Of a stretch of 64,000 nt of DNA, positions 4,469 through 33,177 are shown in pieces. Source of the DNA: Granulosicoccaceae bacterium (GTDB taxonomy: Bacteria > Pseudomonadota > Gammaproteobacteria > Granulosicoccales > Granulosicoccaceae); NCBI GenBank assembly GCA_020629835.1, contig JAHDCO010000003.1, positions 1 to 64,000 of the forward strand, written 5' to 3'. Numbering within the stretch: position 1 is the stretch's first letter; every line of letters starts with the position of its first letter. The translations under genes and the position numbers were made by a program. The notes under the pieces were generated by a model. It was given only the letters and a program-made list of their open reading frames with translations, was not told where the DNA came from and did not search any database.

Positions 4469-4492
4469 CAAAGAGTGCGCTACAGTTACGCT

Positions 4493-5338
4493 ATGAGTGA
4501 TGTACCAACGATCAGTGTGATTATTCCAACGCATAACCGCGTAACCACCCTGGCTCGCGCGCTCGATTCGGTATTAGCGCAAAACTTGAAGCCACTGGAA
4601 ATCATTGTTATTGACGATGGCTCAAACGATGAAACCGGTGAGCTGTTAAAGCTAAACTATCCGCAAGTAAAGTCTTATAGACAATCTAACCATGGCGTAT
4701 CCCACGCCAGAAATCGCGGTATTGAATCCGCTCGTGGGGATTGGATAGCATTACTTGATTCCGATGACGAATGGTATCCGGGCAAACTGGCCGCACAGGT
4801 CAAAGAGCTTGAACGCTTGCCCGATCTGCGCTTATGCCATAGCGATGAACATTGGATCCGCAATGGAAAGCGTGTTAATCCAAGGCGGCGCCATACCAAA
4901 TTAGGCGGCCATATCTTCCAACACTGTTTACCGCTGTGTGCTATCTCACCCTCGGCTGCCATGATTCATCGTTCGGTGTTTACGGACATTGGTTATTTCG
5001 ATGAATCGCTACCGGCCTGTGAAGACTACGATTTTTGGTTGCGACTTACGGCACGAGAAGCCGTTGCCTATTGCGATGCTCCGCTGGTTATCAAATACGG
5101 CGGCCACAGTGATCAACTGTCTCGTCGGTTCATGGCGATGGACCGATTTCGCCTGGTGGCACTGGAGAAAATTCTGTGCGCTGATGTACTGTCCCCCGCT
5201 AACGAGGCAGCAGCCATACGAACACTTGCACAAAAATTTCAGGTGTATTCAGCCGGTGCGATGAAACGCGGTCGAACCGCAGAAGTGGCTGAATTAAGAA
5301 ATCGTTATGAACCCTGGTTGGCACGTTATACTGCATAG
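4493..5338 (+). CDS. Family 2 glycosyltransferase
   Basis: A 281-residue GT-A fold enzyme. It opens with ISVIIPTHNRVTTLARALDSV, has the nucleotide-sugar motif VIDDGSNDET, the metal-binding DSDDEW (a DxD variant) about residue 90, and CEDYDFWLRL further on as the likely acceptor/catalytic-base region. No membrane helices are seen, so it acts on the cytoplasmic side, probably in assembling a lipopolysaccharide or exopolysaccharide. A GTG at 4475 is also in frame but would add six residues; the ATG at 4493 puts the beta-strand at the usual distance from the N-terminus. It abuts the next gene (TAG followed at once by ATG). Confidence 0.85.
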   Translation: MSDVPTISVIIPTHNRVTTLARALDSVLAQNLKPLEIIVIDDGSNDETGELLKLNYPQVKSYRQSNHGVSHARNRGIESARGDWIALLDSDDEWYPGKLAAQVKELERLPDLRLCHSDEHWIRNGKRVNPRRRHTKLGGHIFQHCLPLCAISPSAAMIHRSVFTDIGYFDESLPACEDYDFWLRLTAREAVAYCDAPLVIKYGGHSDQLSRRFMAMDRFRLVALEKILCADVLSPANEAAAIRTLAQKFQVYSAGAMKRGRTAEVAELRNRYEPWLARYTA

Positions 5339-5710
5339 ATGTCAGCACTAGTTTTTAAACTCAGAAACGTTCCAGAAGACGAAGCCCAGGATGTTCGAGA
5401 GCTTCTCGAAACCAACCGTATTGAGTTTTATGAAACAACGGCTGGCAATTGGGGTATCGCGATGCCCGGGTTATGGGCCGCTGACGACGATGATGTCGAA
5501 AAAGCCAAAGCATTAATACAAGCTTACCAACGCGAACGCACTCAACAACAGCGGCTCAAATATCAGGATGCCGTAGCCCGTGGTGAATCACCTAAGTGGT
5601 ATGCGCGTTTCATTGAAAACCCCTTACCCACCATAGGAATAGTGCTGTTCTGTTTGTTCATTGTGTATGCACTATTGTCCCCATTCGTGCGGCTGGCGTT
5701 ACCTAACTAA
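5339..5710 (+). CDS. DUF6164-family small membrane protein
   Basis: A 123-residue protein with a soluble N-terminal part that resembles the DUF2007-like fold (ALVFKLRNVPEDEAQDVRELLE), an acidic stretch WAADDDDVEKAK, a basic helix, and one membrane helix near residues 96-118 (TIGIVLFCLFIVYALLSPF). Function is unknown in this family. The start codon follows the stop of the glycosyltransferase gene without a gap, so the two are almost certainly translated from one message. Confidence 0.75.
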   Translation: MSALVFKLRNVPEDEAQDVRELLETNRIEFYETTAGNWGIAMPGLWAADDDDVEKAKALIQAYQRERTQQQRLKYQDAVARGESPKWYARFIENPLPTIGIVLFCLFIVYALLSPFVRLALPN

Positions 5711-9785: not shown

Positions 9786-10736
9786 CTATGCGGCTCGGAA
9801 GCGGCGCACTAATTGGCGTGCGGCAATTTCTTTGGTGATCCACCAGTTTCGAAGTGGCATCCACGGGTCTTCTACCGGTGCCGCTGTTGGTGCTTGCACC
9901 AGATACTCAAGCGACTGGGCGACGGTATCGAACATTACGGTCGGAGAGTAGGCTGCTTCCCACGCTTCACGGGCGGCAATGCCTCGATCGAACGCTTCAC
10001 TTACGTGTTGATTGAGTAAGTCAGGGATTCCCTCAATATCTTTTTCAGGCACGAATAAAGCGAAATCCCAATCCACATGCGGAGGCGGTACCCAGTTATC
10101 AGAGATGATGACCGGCGCACGCGCCGCTTGCATGGCTTCAAAGGGCCGATAGGAGGCCGGTCCGATACCTCGAGGGCACAATACGAAGTGGCTGCGGGCC
10201 ATGGATTCAGCAAACACCAGGCCCTGTGAGTTGCGTTCCGCGGCGGTGGAGTGCCAAACGCAGAATTCAGATGTATCCCTAACCCCGAGGCTATGGTTTT
10301 GCAGGGCCGCCACGCGCTTACGCATTGGGTGGCTGTTCGAACCCACGAACGAAAACAGCCATTCGCGCTTGATCTGCCACCGATGAATCTGCGGGACGAA
10401 TCGATTGGGTGTTACCAAATAAGGAAACGCTACCTGGCGTGATTCATCGTAGCGATCGGATGGCATGGAGCAGTAGAGCCCGGGCAGCGTACACCATGGG
10501 TGGTCCAGCTCGTTGTACATAAAGCACTTTTCGGGGTACTGCTTAATCAGCGGATGCTTCAATAGCCGCTTGTACAGGTAGTCGTCAAACTGGCCGTTTT
10601 CAACAAACAGGATGATATCGGCAGCGTGGGGGTCATCACAAACTTCATGCCGTCCAACACGGTCGTTATTGGCATATGACCGTAGCGCGGCCAGCCAATC
10701 GTGCGTTGGATAAGCAGAAAGCAGGTGTATCTTCAT
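9786..10736 (-). CDS. Exostosin-family (GT47) glycosyltransferase
   Basis: A 316-residue GT-B type protein of the exostosin family. The recognisable core is FVLCPRGIGPASYRPFEAM followed by ARAPVIISDNWVPPP, which corresponds to the family's nucleotide-sugar site. The first half has the lower-conservation Rossmann domain (DIILFVENGQFDDYLYKR, and FSFVGSNSHPMRKRV). No signal peptide or membrane helix is seen, unlike eukaryotic exostosins. Bacterial members are usually found in surface-polysaccharide loci; here the gene is isolated between an HNH gene and an ABC exporter, so the acceptor is unknown. Confidence 0.8.
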   Translation of the reverse strand: MKIHLLSAYPTHDWLAALRSYANNDRVGRHEVCDDPHAADIILFVENGQFDDYLYKRLLKHPLIKQYPEKCFMYNELDHPWCTLPGLYCSMPSDRYDESRQVAFPYLVTPNRFVPQIHRWQIKREWLFSFVGSNSHPMRKRVAALQNHSLGVRDTSEFCVWHSTAAERNSQGLVFAESMARSHFVLCPRGIGPASYRPFEAMQAARAPVIISDNWVPPPHVDWDFALFVPEKDIEGIPDLLNQHVSEAFDRGIAAREAWEAAYSPTVMFDTVAQSLEYLVQAPTAAPVEDPWMPLRNWWITKEIAARQLVRRFRAA

Positions 10737-27915: not shown

Positions 27916-28842
27916 ATGTTCATACAACAACAACCCATCGACCGTCAGGACCATCTTCGTAAAGACGACGCTGCAGTCGCAGCACTCTGGCACGATCCCA
28001 AAGCCCGTGTGCTACCCATACACAAAGGGGCCTGCCCCGTTAATTTTGATCAGGATGTGCTTAGCTTAGCTGCTTTTCCGGTACAAGCCCCCTGGCAAGT
28101 CAGCCATGCAATTTATTTGGGTACCGACGGCCAAACACCCTGGTTCACCATTGCGATAGACGATGACCAGGCCAGTAACCTGACTTTGCCTGCCGACACC
28201 GAATTCACCGATTTACGCAAAGTGGGTATGCGCATCAACGCGGACGACGGAGCGCTTCTCACCTATGCAAAGGGGCTGTGTTTTTGGCACGAAAACACGA
28301 CACACTGCAGCCGTTGCGGTAGCCAGCTTAAAAACATTCAGGCAGGCCACACGAAGCGTTGTGTGAACGAGGCCTGCGGCCACATGGTGTTCCCACGAAC
28401 TGACCCTGCTGTCATCATGCTGGTAACACACACAGATAGCGATGGCGTCGAGCGTTGCTTGCTCGGCCGCAGCCCCGGCTGGCCTGCCGGGATGTACTCC
28501 ACGTTAGCGGGATTCGTAGAATGCGGTGAATCCCTCGAGCAAGCCGTTGCCAGAGAAGTCTTTGAGGAAGCCGGGGTACGAGTCAATCACGTTCAATACA
28601 TCACGTCCCAGCCCTGGCCTTTCCCTCGCTCCATCATGCTCGGGTTTAAAGCCGAGGCCATCACCACGGAACTGGCGTTAGATACACATGAGATTGAAGA
28701 CGCGCAATGGTTTACCCGTGCGCAAGTTCAGGCCTTCGGTACCTGGGGAGACCCGGCTTACGACTACCAAATGCCAAGAACGGATTCGATCGCTTTTTAT
28801 TTACTGAGCCTGTGGCTCAATGGCAGCCACACCACCGGATAA
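27916..28842 (+). CDS. nudC: NAD(+) diphosphatase / NAD-cap decapping enzyme NudC
   Basis: A 308-residue Nudix hydrolase. It has the zinc-ribbon cysteines CSRC and CVNEAC (about residues 132-155), the Nudix box GFVECGESLEQAVAREVFEE(AG), and the NudC-specific SQPWPFPRS motif after it. It converts NADH/NAD to NMN plus AMP and removes NAD caps from RNA. It has a slightly longer N-terminal domain than E. coli NudC (257 residues), as in many Pseudomonas-like forms. The 3' end overlaps the convergent M48 gene by 42 bases. Confidence 0.93.
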   Translation: MFIQQQPIDRQDHLRKDDAAVAALWHDPKARVLPIHKGACPVNFDQDVLSLAAFPVQAPWQVSHAIYLGTDGQTPWFTIAIDDDQASNLTLPADTEFTDLRKVGMRINADDGALLTYAKGLCFWHENTTHCSRCGSQLKNIQAGHTKRCVNEACGHMVFPRTDPAVIMLVTHTDSDGVERCLLGRSPGWPAGMYSTLAGFVECGESLEQAVAREVFEEAGVRVNHVQYITSQPWPFPRSIMLGFKAEAITTELALDTHEIEDAQWFTRAQVQAFGTWGDPAYDYQMPRTDSIAFYLLSLWLNGSHTTG

Positions 28843-29706: not shown

Positions 29707-30171
29707 TTACGCCTTCGCGGTAAGCATGGGCTTGGGTATTAACGCTGTGCCGTAAGCCAGTACCTCGATGGCCCCCTTGCCGGTCTGCTGGATTGTGGCC
29801 GTGTGATATTTCACATTGAAAACCAGATCCGCATTCACCGCATCAGCAGATTCCTTCATGCGCAACAGCGCTTCGCGGCGACCACGATCCAATAATGATT
29901 CGAAGGGGGTCACACGTCCACCAAAAATATTAATCAACCCTGAAAGGAATGTTTTAAAGTAGTCCGAGGCGATGACCACGTTCCCGGTTACCAGCAGCTG
30001 TTGGTAGTTTGGAACTCCCTCTCCGGACGGTGGGTATCGACTGGCAACGGCCGGTAACCTGTTGAGCTGCTGCTCACGTTTGATGATGGATTTTAAATGT
30101 CGGGTTTCTGCAATCTTGCCGAATATCATTCCGGTCAACAGCAAGACCACAAAAACAATAAAACTACCCAT
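29707..30171 (-). CDS. YbjQ/DUF74-like protein with N-terminal membrane helix
   Basis: About 154 residues. It starts with a hydrophobic helix (MGSFIVFVVLLLTGMIFGK), then a linker, and a heavy-metal-binding (YbjQ, DUF74) domain with IFGGRVTPFESLLDRGRREAL and a NADLVFNVKYHT strand. The ATG at 30171 overlaps the stop of the preceding ybjQ gene by eight bases, which supports translational coupling; a longer frame to 30219 would force a 56-base overlap. The domain forms pentameric rings in solved family members; function is unknown. Confidence 0.75.
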   Translation of the reverse strand: MGSFIVFVVLLLTGMIFGKIAETRHLKSIIKREQQLNRLPAVASRYPPSGEGVPNYQQLLVTGNVVIASDYFKTFLSGLINIFGGRVTPFESLLDRGRREALLRMKESADAVNADLVFNVKYHTATIQQTGKGAIEVLAYGTALIPKPMLTAKA

Positions 30172-30487
30172 GATCAGCCAGCTCCACGGCGGTGCCGTAC
30201 ACAAATATTTCTGCCGCACCGGCGGTGATGCTCGAGGTACTGAATCTTACGTTAAGCACCGCATCAGCCCCAATGGAGCGCGCTTGCTCAATCATTCGTT
30301 CAGTGGCCTCCACGCGGGAATCCTGAAGCAGTTCGGTGTAACCAACCAACTCTCCACCGAATATATTTTTCAACCCTGCCATGACATCACGACCTACGTG
30401 CTTCGATCGGACCGAACTGCCCTGAACCAAACCGATATGCCTGGTCACTTTTTGATCGGGTAAAAATTCTAGGTTAGAAATTATCAT
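30164..30487 (-). CDS. YbjQ-family protein (DUF74)
   Basis: A 107-residue soluble YbjQ protein. Visible hallmarks are GLVQGSSVRSKHVGRDVMAGL, FGGELVGYTELL and the SIGADAVLNVRF strand. Its sequence has the same domain as the next gene but without the membrane helix, so the pair looks like a tandem duplication with one anchored copy. The Met at 30487 is chosen because MIISN matches the family start; five extra residues to 30502 are possible. Confidence 0.82.
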   Translation of the reverse strand: MIISNLEFLPDQKVTRHIGLVQGSSVRSKHVGRDVMAGLKNIFGGELVGYTELLQDSRVEATERMIEQARSIGADAVLNVRFSTSSITAGAAEIFVYGTAVELADHG

Positions 30488-30588
30488 GCTGGGTTTATCC
30501 AAGAACCAAGATGGCCATAAGTGTAGGGTTAAACAGCGTAGGGTTAGACTAATCGTTCTATGTTAAATAACACGTGTGTAACCGCATC

Positions 30589-31440
30589 ATGGCAATAACT
30601 TGTCTGGTCACCGCCATGACCGCAGAATCCAAGCCTTTAATAGAAGCCTTCCAGCTTAAGCCGGTGCCCCAACGCGGTTTGAGCGCCTGGGTGGGCAATG
30701 AGGTTTGCTTACTCCAAACCGGTATGGGCGCACAACGTGCCGCTGCCCGCCTGGAAACCTTGATGTCCATACTCACGGGTATCGACGCGTTTATCAATAT
30801 CGGAATCGCCGGTGGTGACCGACCCATCGGGCAGGTTTTATTGGCTAGCAGTGTTCACGATCACACCACCGGGCGTCGCTGGTACCCTCATTTGCCGCCA
30901 CTGCCAACCACAGCCTTAGCAACCGACCCGGCAAACCCATCAGTGACACAGGAATACTGCGAAGTAGTCAGCGTAGCAGAGCCTTCTTCTGAATACCGCA
31001 AGGATTGTGTTTTTGACATGGAAGCGGCGGCCGTTTTACAGGCGGCCACCCAGTACACCGATTTATCGCGAATACAGTGCGTAAAGGTGGTGTCCGACAA
31101 CCCCCAACACCCCATCGATGACTTCTCAGTAAAAAACGTGGGCCCCTGGATGCGCAGCACGATACCCACCGTGCAAATGTTGATCGATTGGTTAGCGTCG
31201 CAAGAATATAAAAACACCACTGATACCTTCAAAACCCAGGTTCATCGCCTGGTTACCCACATCACCGAACTGTGCCACCACAGCGCGACAGAAACTCACC
31301 AACTTCGCAGGCTGCTGGAACGTTATCTGGCCATGTACGGCGATTTACCCAGCATTGAAGCCTTAGGCAATCTTGATAGCAGCAAACGGTTACTGAAACA
31401 CTTAGATGATCAATTACTAAGCTACCCAGTCAATTATTGA
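30589..31440 (+). CDS. Nucleoside phosphorylase/nucleosidase-like protein
   Basis: A 283-residue protein whose first 195 residues have the MTA/SAH nucleosidase and purine-nucleoside phosphorylase fold. Visible parts are CLVTAMTAESKPLIEAF, LLQTGMGAQRAAARL, INIGIAGG, the purine-site FDMEAAAVLQAA and VKVVSDNP. The catalytic Asp normally about 20 residues later may be D in SDNPQHPIDDF. The remaining 85 residues are helical and specific to this group. It is followed by an SPL-like radical SAM gene 13 bases on and a Nudix gene, so a role in damaged-nucleoside handling is an inference. A GTG near 30574 is an alternative start. Confidence 0.7.
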   Translation: MAITCLVTAMTAESKPLIEAFQLKPVPQRGLSAWVGNEVCLLQTGMGAQRAAARLETLMSILTGIDAFINIGIAGGDRPIGQVLLASSVHDHTTGRRWYPHLPPLPTTALATDPANPSVTQEYCEVVSVAEPSSEYRKDCVFDMEAAAVLQAATQYTDLSRIQCVKVVSDNPQHPIDDFSVKNVGPWMRSTIPTVQMLIDWLASQEYKNTTDTFKTQVHRLVTHITELCHHSATETHQLRRLLERYLAMYGDLPSIEALGNLDSSKRLLKHLDDQLLSYPVNY

Positions 31441-31453
31441 TACTCTAGGCCTG

Positions 31454-32539
31454 ATGATTAGTACGCTTTATATAGAACGAGAAATTGCCGAGCACCCGCG
31501 AACCCAGGCGATTGTGCAGCGCTTTCCGAAGTCCAGGCAAATTTCAATTGATCGCTATGGCGATGTGTTCAACCAGCCAGCCCAGGACTTTCGACAGCAA
31601 AAACAGGCACCGGCCTTAATCCTTGCCAAAAAGCACGGCCGAAGAGTTTTACCCACGCCGCCGGGCTATCACATTGGTGGCTCCAGGAACTACTACTTTT
31701 CTCACATGCTTAATTGCGTATACGACTGCCGTTACTGCTTCTTACAAGGCATGTATCGTTCGGGTAATTACGTCGTCTTTGCTAATTTTGATGATTTTTT
31801 CTCGGATATACGAGCCACCTGCGAAGAAGATACCCAGACACCCAGCTGGTTTTTTTCAGGGTATGACTGTGACTCCTTAGCACTAAACCCCGTCACCGCC
31901 TTTACTGATGAAGCGTTAAATGAATTTGAGCGCTTACCGAACGCCCGGCTGGAACTCAGAACAAAAAGCACACAGATCCGTTCCCTGTTAAAGCGATCGC
32001 CGGTCAGTAACGTTGTGGTGGCCTACAGCCTGTCACCCAGTGCCATCGCAGAAGCGCATGAGCACAAAACCCCTTCCTTAGAGAAACGTTTACAAGCGCT
32101 ACAGGAGTTACAACAAGCAGGATGGACAATCGGTTTGCGATTCGATCCCATACTGGCTGCGGATAACATGCAAACGTTATACGGTGATTTATTCAGACAA
32201 ACGTTTTCTGCACTCGACGTTGACAGTATTCACTCGGTTAGCCTGGGGCCGTTTCGTCTTCCAAAGCCTTTTTATAAGCGCATGATACGTTTATATCCTG
32301 AATCGCAACTGCTTGCGCAACCCATGAATACCAAAACCGCTATGGTGGGCTACCCAGCTAATGCAGAGCAGGATATGCTGGGGTTCTGTCAACAGGAAAT
32401 CCTTAAGTACATACAGCCACACCAGTTTTTTCCGTGTGTGTCCATCACCAATCCAGTTCAAGCGGTTGATAGCTCGGTCACATCCGCAACGACTGAACCT
32501 GCCTTAAGCGCATCGCTACAACAAGAACCGCTTTCATGA
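31454..32539 (+). CDS. Spore photoproduct lyase-family radical SAM protein
   Basis: A 361-residue radical SAM enzyme. The Fe-S motif is CVYDCRYC (C88, C92, C95), as in SPL proteins. FFSGYDCDSLAL follows, with C139 at the position where B. subtilis SPL has its catalytic cysteine C141; this equivalence is by eye. Further hallmarks are LELRTKST and GLRFDPIL. SPL repairs 5-thyminyl-5,6-dihydrothymine in spore DNA; homologues in non-sporulating Proteobacteria are of unknown substrate. The stop overlaps the Nudix gene start by four bases. Confidence 0.8.
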   Translation: MISTLYIEREIAEHPRTQAIVQRFPKSRQISIDRYGDVFNQPAQDFRQQKQAPALILAKKHGRRVLPTPPGYHIGGSRNYYFSHMLNCVYDCRYCFLQGMYRSGNYVVFANFDDFFSDIRATCEEDTQTPSWFFSGYDCDSLALNPVTAFTDEALNEFERLPNARLELRTKSTQIRSLLKRSPVSNVVVAYSLSPSAIAEAHEHKTPSLEKRLQALQELQQAGWTIGLRFDPILAADNMQTLYGDLFRQTFSALDVDSIHSVSLGPFRLPKPFYKRMIRLYPESQLLAQPMNTKTAMVGYPANAEQDMLGFCQQEILKYIQPHQFFPCVSITNPVQAVDSSVTSATTEPALSASLQQEPLS

Positions 32540-33177
32540 CGCTGGCTGATGATTTCCCAGTAGAGGTATTTAGCGATGAAGGCCTGTTCAAAAACAGTGA
32601 CACGCCATCGGCATCAGCCTATAAGGCGGCTGCTGTTTTAATGCCTCTGGTACGTGTAAAGGATGAATGGCATTTTTTATATATCGTAAGAGCGACAAAC
32701 CCAAACGACAGACACAGCGGACAGGTTGCGTTTCCCGGTGGCCGCGCTGATGAAACCGATAGCTCACTAGAGGAAACCGCATTAAGAGAGACACACGAAG
32801 AGATCGGCGTGCCGCGTGATCAAATCCAACTCATCGGTACCTTATCGCCTTACATCACGGTGAGTGACTACGCCGTAACACCAGTAGTAGCGGTGATGCA
32901 ATGGCCGCAAACGCTCACACTACAAACCAACGAAGTTGCCAGAACCTTAACCTTGCCGTTAATGTGGCTCAGTCAGCGCAAAAATTTCACGCTTCGAGCA
33001 CGCGATACTATCGACCCACTGGCAAACAGCCGTCACCCGGTCATTGTGTACAGCGAAGAAGATAACGCGGTACTCTGGGGTGCAACCGCACGAATGACGC
33101 TGAACGCTTTAAAGGCGTTTTCCGACGGCCAACTCAGTGTGACACCCGCGGTGGACGCACCGATTCGTTTCGGTTAG
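32536..33177 (+). CDS. Nudix CoA pyrophosphatase-like hydrolase
   Basis: A 213-residue Nudix protein of the NudL/CoAse kind. The CoA-type signature HSGQVAFPGGRAD overlaps the start of the Nudix box, whose core is EETALRETHEEIGV. The LSPYITVSDYAVTPVVAV stretch after it is also typical of CoAse. It would cut CoA to 4'-phosphopantetheine and 3',5'-ADP. It is translationally coupled to the SPL-like gene by an ATGA overlap. Confidence 0.85.
   Translation: MTLADDFPVEVFSDEGLFKNSDTPSASAYKAAAVLMPLVRVKDEWHFLYIVRATNPNDRHSGQVAFPGGRADETDSSLEETALRETHEEIGVPRDQIQLIGTLSPYITVSDYAVTPVVAVMQWPQTLTLQTNEVARTLTLPLMWLSQRKNFTLRARDTIDPLANSRHPVIVYSEEDNAVLWGATARMTLNALKAFSDGQLSVTPAVDAPIRFG

Follow-up and report, generated by a model that had tools for sequence, protein, structure and literature searches.

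Introduction

In the futalosine pathway, the radical S-adenosylmethionine (SAM) enzyme MqnE carries out an adenosylation with formation of a C-C bond, and the base is then removed by MqnB or by 5'-methylthioadenosine/S-adenosylhomocysteine (MTA/SAH) nucleosidase (MTAN). For the hopanoid side chain, the excerpted text of PMC12583986 describes radical SAM adenosylation by HpnH, adenine removal by HpnG, an unknown reductase that takes ribosylhopane to the tetrol, and the glycosyltransferase HpnI. In arsenosugar synthesis, arsenic is adenosylated by the radical SAM enzyme ArsS, according to the available part of PMC12159101. In the spore photoproduct lyase (SPL, SplB) of Bacillus, C141 donates hydrogen, and Y99 together with Y97 returns the radical and re-forms SAM (excerpts of PMC3742179 and PMC5368176). 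In the C141A and Y99F variants, SAM recycling is expected to be lost, and 5'-deoxyadenosine then equals the spore photoproduct repaired (PMC3742179, same excerpts). The SPL of Clostridium acetobutylicum has its Cys at another position, as stated in the accessible section of PMC5368176. In this study, we analyzed a stretch of 64,000 nucleotides from a Granulosicoccaceae bacterium (the window), in which the gene of a nucleosidase, named NUC here, precedes that of an SPL-like radical SAM protein.

Outside spore formers, relatives of SPL are commonly given a DNA-repair annotation. In 50 of the 276 gammaproteobacterial genomes examined, the three SPL-like subtypes considered here (A, B, and C) were linked instead to a glycosyltransferase and a nucleosidase, in many cases also to a reductase. 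We consider it quite possible, though short of probable, that a gammaproteobacterial pathway of four enzymes is present in the window in reduced form. It would consist of a family-2 glycosyltransferase (GT2), NUC, the SPL-like protein, and a carbonyl reductase and would work by adenosyl adduct chemistry. The carbonyl reductase is mostly a short-chain dehydrogenase/reductase (SDR). No description of this gene set was found in the literature covered, which leaves out most subscription journals. The pathway is concrete and testable: its gene sets are defined, and Methylomonas, Methylobacter, and Granulosicoccus are among its hosts. A metabolite or lipid not yet known may be found through it, and it would show a repair enzyme that recycles SAM turning into a biosynthetic enzyme that spends it.

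Fold and active site of the SPL-like protein

By its sequence and its predicted structure, the radical SAM enzyme of the window has the SPL fold but lacks the relay of SPL. The AlphaFold model (predicted local distance difference test, pLDDT, 86.4; residues 332-360 below 50) matched SPL entries with Z scores of 31.4-31.7 over 316-318 residues; with 4fhg, Z was 31.7 and the root-mean-square deviation (rmsd) 2.6 over 317 residues. The best match outside SPL had a Z score of 14.4. Full-length orthologues from other genomes shared 47-77% identity with the protein, and most relatives stop near residue 330. Compared with Geobacillus SplB (4FHC-4FHG), it shares the whole-length fold, the CxxxCxxC motif, and Tyr96, which is Tyr94 here. 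However, identity was 17%, the partners are GT2, NUC, and SDR, and the host is not known as a spore former. The match to TIGR04070, the SPL equivalog model, was 86.6 bits, far below the cut-off of 400.

Residues were placed with a phmmer alignment to Geobacillus SPL and a 22-member family profile alignment; the columns were read by eye, and the placement is sequence-based, without coordinates. The preliminary description of this locus had reported CVYDCRYC and a cysteine, C139, in the position of the catalytic Cys of SPL, and had named beforehand the lack of a catalytic Cys in an alignment as the finding that would speak against it. CVYDCRYC is present at residues 88-95. Residue 139 is indeed Cys, but it does not stand at the catalytic place: Tyr137 occupies the column of catalytic Cys140 (FEAACTSD), so no catalytic Cys appears there, and Cys139 aligns with Ser142 and Asp140 with Asp. 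Phe96 stands in place of relay Tyr98. Because Tyr137 replaces the catalytic Cys140 and Phe96 replaces the relay Tyr98, SAM recycling by the SPL-like enzyme is predicted to be unlikely.

Conservation was read in 58 type A loci, which are the best-scoring genome matches only (30 per search, window included). The cysteines of CxxxCxxC, Y94, D138, and D140 were kept in 58/58. Y137 and C139 were each found in 57/58, and Phe96 in 57 loci with Tyr in the remaining one. Another 80 named loci had been picked by the motifs YDCRYCFL and SGYDCDSL and therefore give no test of Cys139.

Co-occurrence and gene neighborhood

One panel of 276 gammaproteobacterial genomes with a completeness of 90% or more was used for the SPL-like, NUC, GT2, and SDR searches. 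The limits for GT2 (E <= 1e-60) and SDR (E <= 1e-50) were fixed before searching; for NUC, 137 bits was chosen as the cut-off after the gap between 137.7 and 38.9 had been seen. The 50 genomes with an SPL-like protein, spread over 27 family labels, comprised 38 of type A (a count that takes in the window's genome and G275, a fragment at the end of a contig), 3 of type B, and 9 of type C. NUC was detected in 61 genomes at E <= 1e-3; 45 matches scored at least 137 bits, the other 16 at most 39, and all 45 fell within the SPL-like set. At the limits given, GT2 occurred in 46 genomes and SDR in 30, both in SPL-like genomes only. Fisher P values, which ignore kinship among genomes, were 1.6e-46 (NUC), 3.5e-48 (GT2), and 3.8e-27 (SDR). 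The SPL-like genomes without NUC at 137 bits or more were G084, G294, and the three of type B. One phylum-wide draw of 397 genomes gave two strong GT2 matches, both in Gammaproteobacteria, and the rows listed were mostly of the same class; seven further matches at 174-203 bits were judged to be paralogues.

In 52 of the 58 type A loci, the gene directly upstream of SPL was NUC (tblastn), and 40 loci had SDR downstream (profile). This arrangement and the 47-77% identical orthologues indicate that the locus is not a product of chance. Of the 80 named loci, 64 had SDR, 14 lacked it, and two ended too soon to tell. Upstream NUC was present in 45, and the loci without it were mostly Methylococcales, in which the SPL-SDR pair stands without NUC. 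GT2 was upstream of NUC in 15 of these 80 loci and in 14 of a set of 34 loci, two of which cover one place. The order is often GT2-nucleosidase-SPL-like-SDR, though the genes also occur unlinked. In type A genomes of the panel, adjacency was 32/36 for NUC-SPL, 22/22 for SPL-SDR, and 21/32 for GT2-NUC. Since NUC and SPL were not adjacent in 4/36 type A and 9/9 type C genomes, the association is not merely that of one co-inherited operon. A gene resembling DSP phosphatases (PF22741, 41 bits in L080) was seen between GT2 and NUC in L080 (3735-4193, + strand), L083, L096, L098, and L099.

The neighborhood check proposed in the preliminary description showed that the neighbors are not random: the NUC-SPL link holds across 27 family labels, even when the genes are far apart. 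The boundary of the unit had been drawn wrongly; SDR and GT2 were missed, the latter lying in the same window. The window GT2 is 25 kb away from the NUC-SPL pair and is the orthologue of the gene that relatives have upstream of NUC (GT2 profile, 413 bits; A4, 440.8 bits). No SDR orthologue was found in the window genome at E <= 1e-50, the best of 27 matches having 29% identity. SDR is lost in the window's clade.

Subtypes and putative domain exchange

In all type A NUC proteins measured, including the four unlinked cases, the tail after the SD motif was 104-158 aa long. In type C it was 32-51 aa (9/9), and the helical extension is absent. The extra N-terminal domain of type C SPL-like proteins matched the type A NUC tail (hhalign probability 43%, P 2.4e-4, against P 0.054 for the best among 96 control windows). 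Read from sequence, this homology is suggestive rather than proven: one helical domain would have moved between NUC in type A and the SPL-like protein in type C. Type C proteins carry the motif GQ[SA]SDSL, which has no Cys, and their gene order is GT2-NUC-SDR, with adjacency of 8/9 for GT2-NUC, 6/8 for NUC-SDR, and 0/9 for NUC-SPL.

In type B (G102, G217, and G305), the motif is WELGDSLALEP or a near variant, again without Cys. In these genomes, GT2 carries an N-terminally fused NUC-like domain (PF01048, 22-23 bits, below the cut-off of 25.1; PF00535, 113-121 bits), and by eye, DMEA and SD were kept in the L240 fusion. An aldo/keto reductase gene lies 3' of SPL in 3/3 (169-188 bits in the two scanned); it seems to take the place of SDR as a second kind of carbonyl reductase. 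No helical extension was seen in the type B SPL-like or fusion proteins by reading, and no further search for it was made. In 3/3 type B loci, the gene before SPL has a ParB_N match below threshold (15-16 bits), for example at L150 4952-5962 and L152 4538-5500 (both - strand).

The nucleosidase

The NUC model (pLDDT 91.8) had MTAN structures as its best PDB matches (Z 23.1, rmsd 2.1 over 193 residues), and Helicobacter pylori futalosine hydrolase gave Z 22.6; these alignments span residues 1-206, with the extension outside. E13, M144-E145, and D170 were invariant in 36 NUC proteins. We take them to correspond to the MTAN catalytic residues Glu12, Met173-Glu174, and Asp197 (E. coli numbering). 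NUC thus resembles MtnN/Pfs, the MTA/SAH nucleosidase, in fold and catalytic residues, but it has a shorter core, an extra helical domain, and a tie to the SPL-like gene. Among NCBIfam models, NUC scored 34.6 bits with futalosine hydrolase (TIGR03664, cut-off 124.7), 28.5 bits with HpnG (TIGR03468, cut-off 187.1), and 22.1 bits with MTAN (NF004079, cut-off 169). Futalosine hydrolase was the top match, far under its cut-off, in four of five NUC members. The futalosine pathway resembles the proposed one in its radical SAM adenosylation followed by base removal, but the SPL-like model is structurally distant from MqnE (Z 12.9, versus 31.7 to SPL).

Two genomes, G084 and G294, have a NUC whose nucleosidase half is degenerate and lacks the catalytic residues, with the extension kept; NUC catalysis is therefore not needed in these two genomes. 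Degenerate NUC genes with a kept extension were seen upstream of SPL at L161 2896-3555, L164 2941-3903, and L116 1126-1788, the L116 gene resembling those of G084 and G294.

Canonical MTAN scored above its cut-off in 1/50 SPL-like genomes, namely the window's own, which carries it (G000:C114:29674-30417) together with an MtnP-like gene on the same contig. General disposal of 5'-deoxyadenosine by NUC was considered because canonical MTAN is missing in the other 49. This is a weak reason for NUC, since MtnP (MTA phosphorylase) was found at 241-297 bits in 40/50 SPL-like genomes, 26 of them above its cut-off. In Synechococcus elongatus, MtnP cleaves 5'-deoxyadenosine, according to the available text of PMC8102628.

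Proposed pathway

With somewhat more reserve, we propose an undescribed gammaproteobacterial biosynthesis, in which a relay-less SPL-fold adenosyl transferase would act with a captive nucleosidase, a reductase, and GT2 to give a glycosylated ribityl or ribosyl product, independently of the hopanoid and arsenosugar routes. Lacking the Cys/Tyr relay that returns the radical to 5'-deoxyadenosine, the SPL-like enzyme would spend SAM, most likely by joining the 5'-deoxyadenosyl radical to an unsaturated acceptor. NUC would then strip adenine from the adduct and expose the ribose C1 carbonyl, SDR (in type B, the aldo/keto reductase) would reduce it, and GT2 would attach a sugar to the polyol or ribosyl group that results. 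The helical extension, whether on NUC or on the SPL-like protein, may tether the two proteins for hand-over. The reduction step would be missing in the window's clade, which has no SDR, or carried out by another enzyme. This adenosylation logic is our best guess because of the lost relay combined with the captive nucleosidase, the reductase, and GT2. It also draws on the co-occurrence of the four families, their co-linearity in many genomes, the NUC-GT2 fusion, the probable domain exchange between NUC and the SPL-like protein, and the presence of MtnP, which can dispose of 5'-deoxyadenosine, in most SPL-like genomes.

The hopanoid system HpnH/HpnG/HpnI has the same four enzyme classes, and HpnG is likewise a phosphorylase-superfamily enzyme. 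However, the SPL-like protein and HpnH belong to different radical SAM families, and no hopanoid gene was recognized beside the loci. The arsenosugar system shares radical SAM adenosylation and a glycosyltransferase of the GT2 family, TIGR04283, with which the window GT2 scored 68.3 bits; the cut-off of 182 was missed, other GT2 models scored higher, and no arsenic gene was recognized beside the loci.

Several observations weigh against the proposed pathway. The reductase is not constant, as SDR was missing in 20/50 SPL-like genomes, including the window's own, and in the 13 of 16 SDR-less type A genomes that were inspected, no replacement was recognized by eye beside the SPL-like gene; in three of them, the downstream protein resembled, also by eye, a solute symporter. 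GT2 was missing in 4/50 (G095, G213, G255, and G301). NUC missed the HpnG, futalosine-hydrolase, and MTAN cut-offs alike, and HpnH was absent among the NCBIfam matches of the SPL-like protein at E <= 0.1. To these are added the degenerate NUC of G084 and G294, the kinship overlooked by the P values, and the C. acetobutylicum precedent: as that SPL keeps its Cys at another site (PMC5368176, in the section cited above), the displaced C139 could still be a hydrogen donor.

Alternative explanations

An unlikely alternative is by-product disposal. Here, the SPL-like enzyme would abstract hydrogen and release 5'-deoxyadenosine, NUC would cleave this locally and relieve inhibition, and GT2 and SDR would act on the real product. 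A lost relay predicts the release of 5'-deoxyadenosine, NUC has the MTAN fold, and the genomes mostly lack canonical MTAN. Radical SAM enzymes of other kinds occur everywhere, yet NUC always accompanies the SPL-like one (45/45). Moreover, the gene partners of NUC in type C are GT2 and SDR instead of SPL, in type B NUC and GT2 form one fusion protein, and MtnP is present in most of the genomes. That 5'-deoxyadenosine inhibits radical SAM enzymes (PMC8102628, partial text) speaks for disposal.

We give little credence to nucleic-acid repair or modification, in which the SPL-like protein would act on a DNA or RNA base, NUC would remove the modified base or nucleoside, and GT2 and SDR would decorate or salvage it. 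The whole-length SPL fold (Z 31.7) and the sub-threshold ParB_N gene before type B SPL are consistent with it, and so are SplB-like proteins elsewhere that adjoin DNA-repair genes, as described in the accessible part of PMC3765255. However, the SPL relay residues are replaced and the partners are sugar-chemistry enzymes. None of the annotated recurrent neighbor clusters was recognized as a DNA-repair gene, and no ImuB-C or DUF4130 partner was among them, though no search was aimed at these two. Of the alternatives, this one lies closest to the preliminary description, whose suggested processing of a damaged base is possible and is now less likely than the biosynthetic reading.

It also seems improbable that C139 is the true hydrogen donor, two residues on, with type A SPL-like proteins acting on a different substrate and recycling SAM. 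The near-invariance of C139 and Y94 in type A and the position of the Cys in the C. acetobutylicum enzyme (in the section of its source cited above) favor this. On the other side, type C has the same partners and Ser at this site, the type B motif has no Cys, and the type A member G103 has Ala139 yet keeps NUC, GT2, and SDR; the Y98 site, moreover, is Phe or Ser across types A to C.

A chance neighborhood kept by conserved synteny, with no functional link, is hardly credible: long-range synteny within Granulosicoccaceae is strong and alone explains the Nudix gene, but the other genes co-occur unlinked, fuse, and apparently exchange a domain across the 27 family labels.

The Nudix gene and other features of the window

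The three open reading frames described earlier were confirmed, all on the + strand, with a 13-base gap between NUC and the SPL-like gene and a four-base ATGA overlap between the SPL-like and Nudix genes (Table 1). An alternative GTG start of NUC at 30574 would give 288 aa. None of the NUC, SPL-like, and Nudix proteins reached a curated NCBIfam cut-off; the Nudix protein scored 107.4 bits with the CoA pyrophosphatase NudL model NF007980 (cut-off 134).

Table 1. Positions of the genes and motifs discussed, in window coordinates.
Feature	Position	Strand	Evidence
GT2, family-2 glycosyltransferase	4475..5338	+	PF00535, 117 bits
NUC, MTAN-fold nucleosidase (residues 1-206) with C-terminal helical extension, 283 aa	30589..31440	+	PF01048, 53.7 bits
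NUC C-terminal extension (residues 207-283), putatively movable helical domain	31207..31437	+	Length comparison, hhalign
SPL-like radical SAM protein, type A, 361 aa	31454..32539	+	PF20903 (SPL), 63.9 bits (cut-off 27)
CVYDCRYC, [4Fe-4S] motif C88-C92-C95; Y94 = Geobacillus Y96	31715..31738	+	
Phe96 at the site of relay Tyr98 (Geobacillus) or Tyr99 (Bacillus)	31739..31741	+	Two alignments
SGYDCDSLA motif, Y137 at the catalytic Cys140 (Geobacillus) site, C139 at the Ser142 site	31856..31882	+	
SPL-like C-terminal tail (residues 330-361), largely disordered	32441..32536	+	Model
Nudix hydrolase, NudL/CoA-pyrophosphatase-like, 213 aa, incidental neighbor	32536..33177	+	PF00293, 46.5 bits

The preliminary description had joined these three genes into one unit. 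The nucleosidase and the SPL-like protein do belong together outside spore formers, but the Nudix gene adjoins SPL in only 4/58 type A loci, all of the window's closest clade, and in 3/80 named loci. In seven of seven Granulosicoccaceae loci (L062-L068), the order was SPL-SDR-acetyltransferase-like-Nudix, in some with one extra open reading frame; the acetyltransferase-like call was made by eye, with no family search. Nudix stands next to SPL in the window's clade because the SDR and acetyltransferase-like genes are missing there. As a partner it was rejected, and the Nudix gene is a lineage-specific neighbor outside the system. A second Nudix gene nearby, encoding the NAD(+) diphosphatase NudC (27916-28842, + strand), scored above its own cut-off.

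Two consecutive YbjQ-family genes (29707-30219 and 30164-30502, - strand) are divergent from NUC in the window, and such a pair adjoins NUC in most Granulosicoccaceae loci. Directly 3' of the window GT2 is a DUF6164 gene (5339-5710, + strand), and a protein with an Exostosin GT47 domain is encoded at 9786-10736 (- strand).

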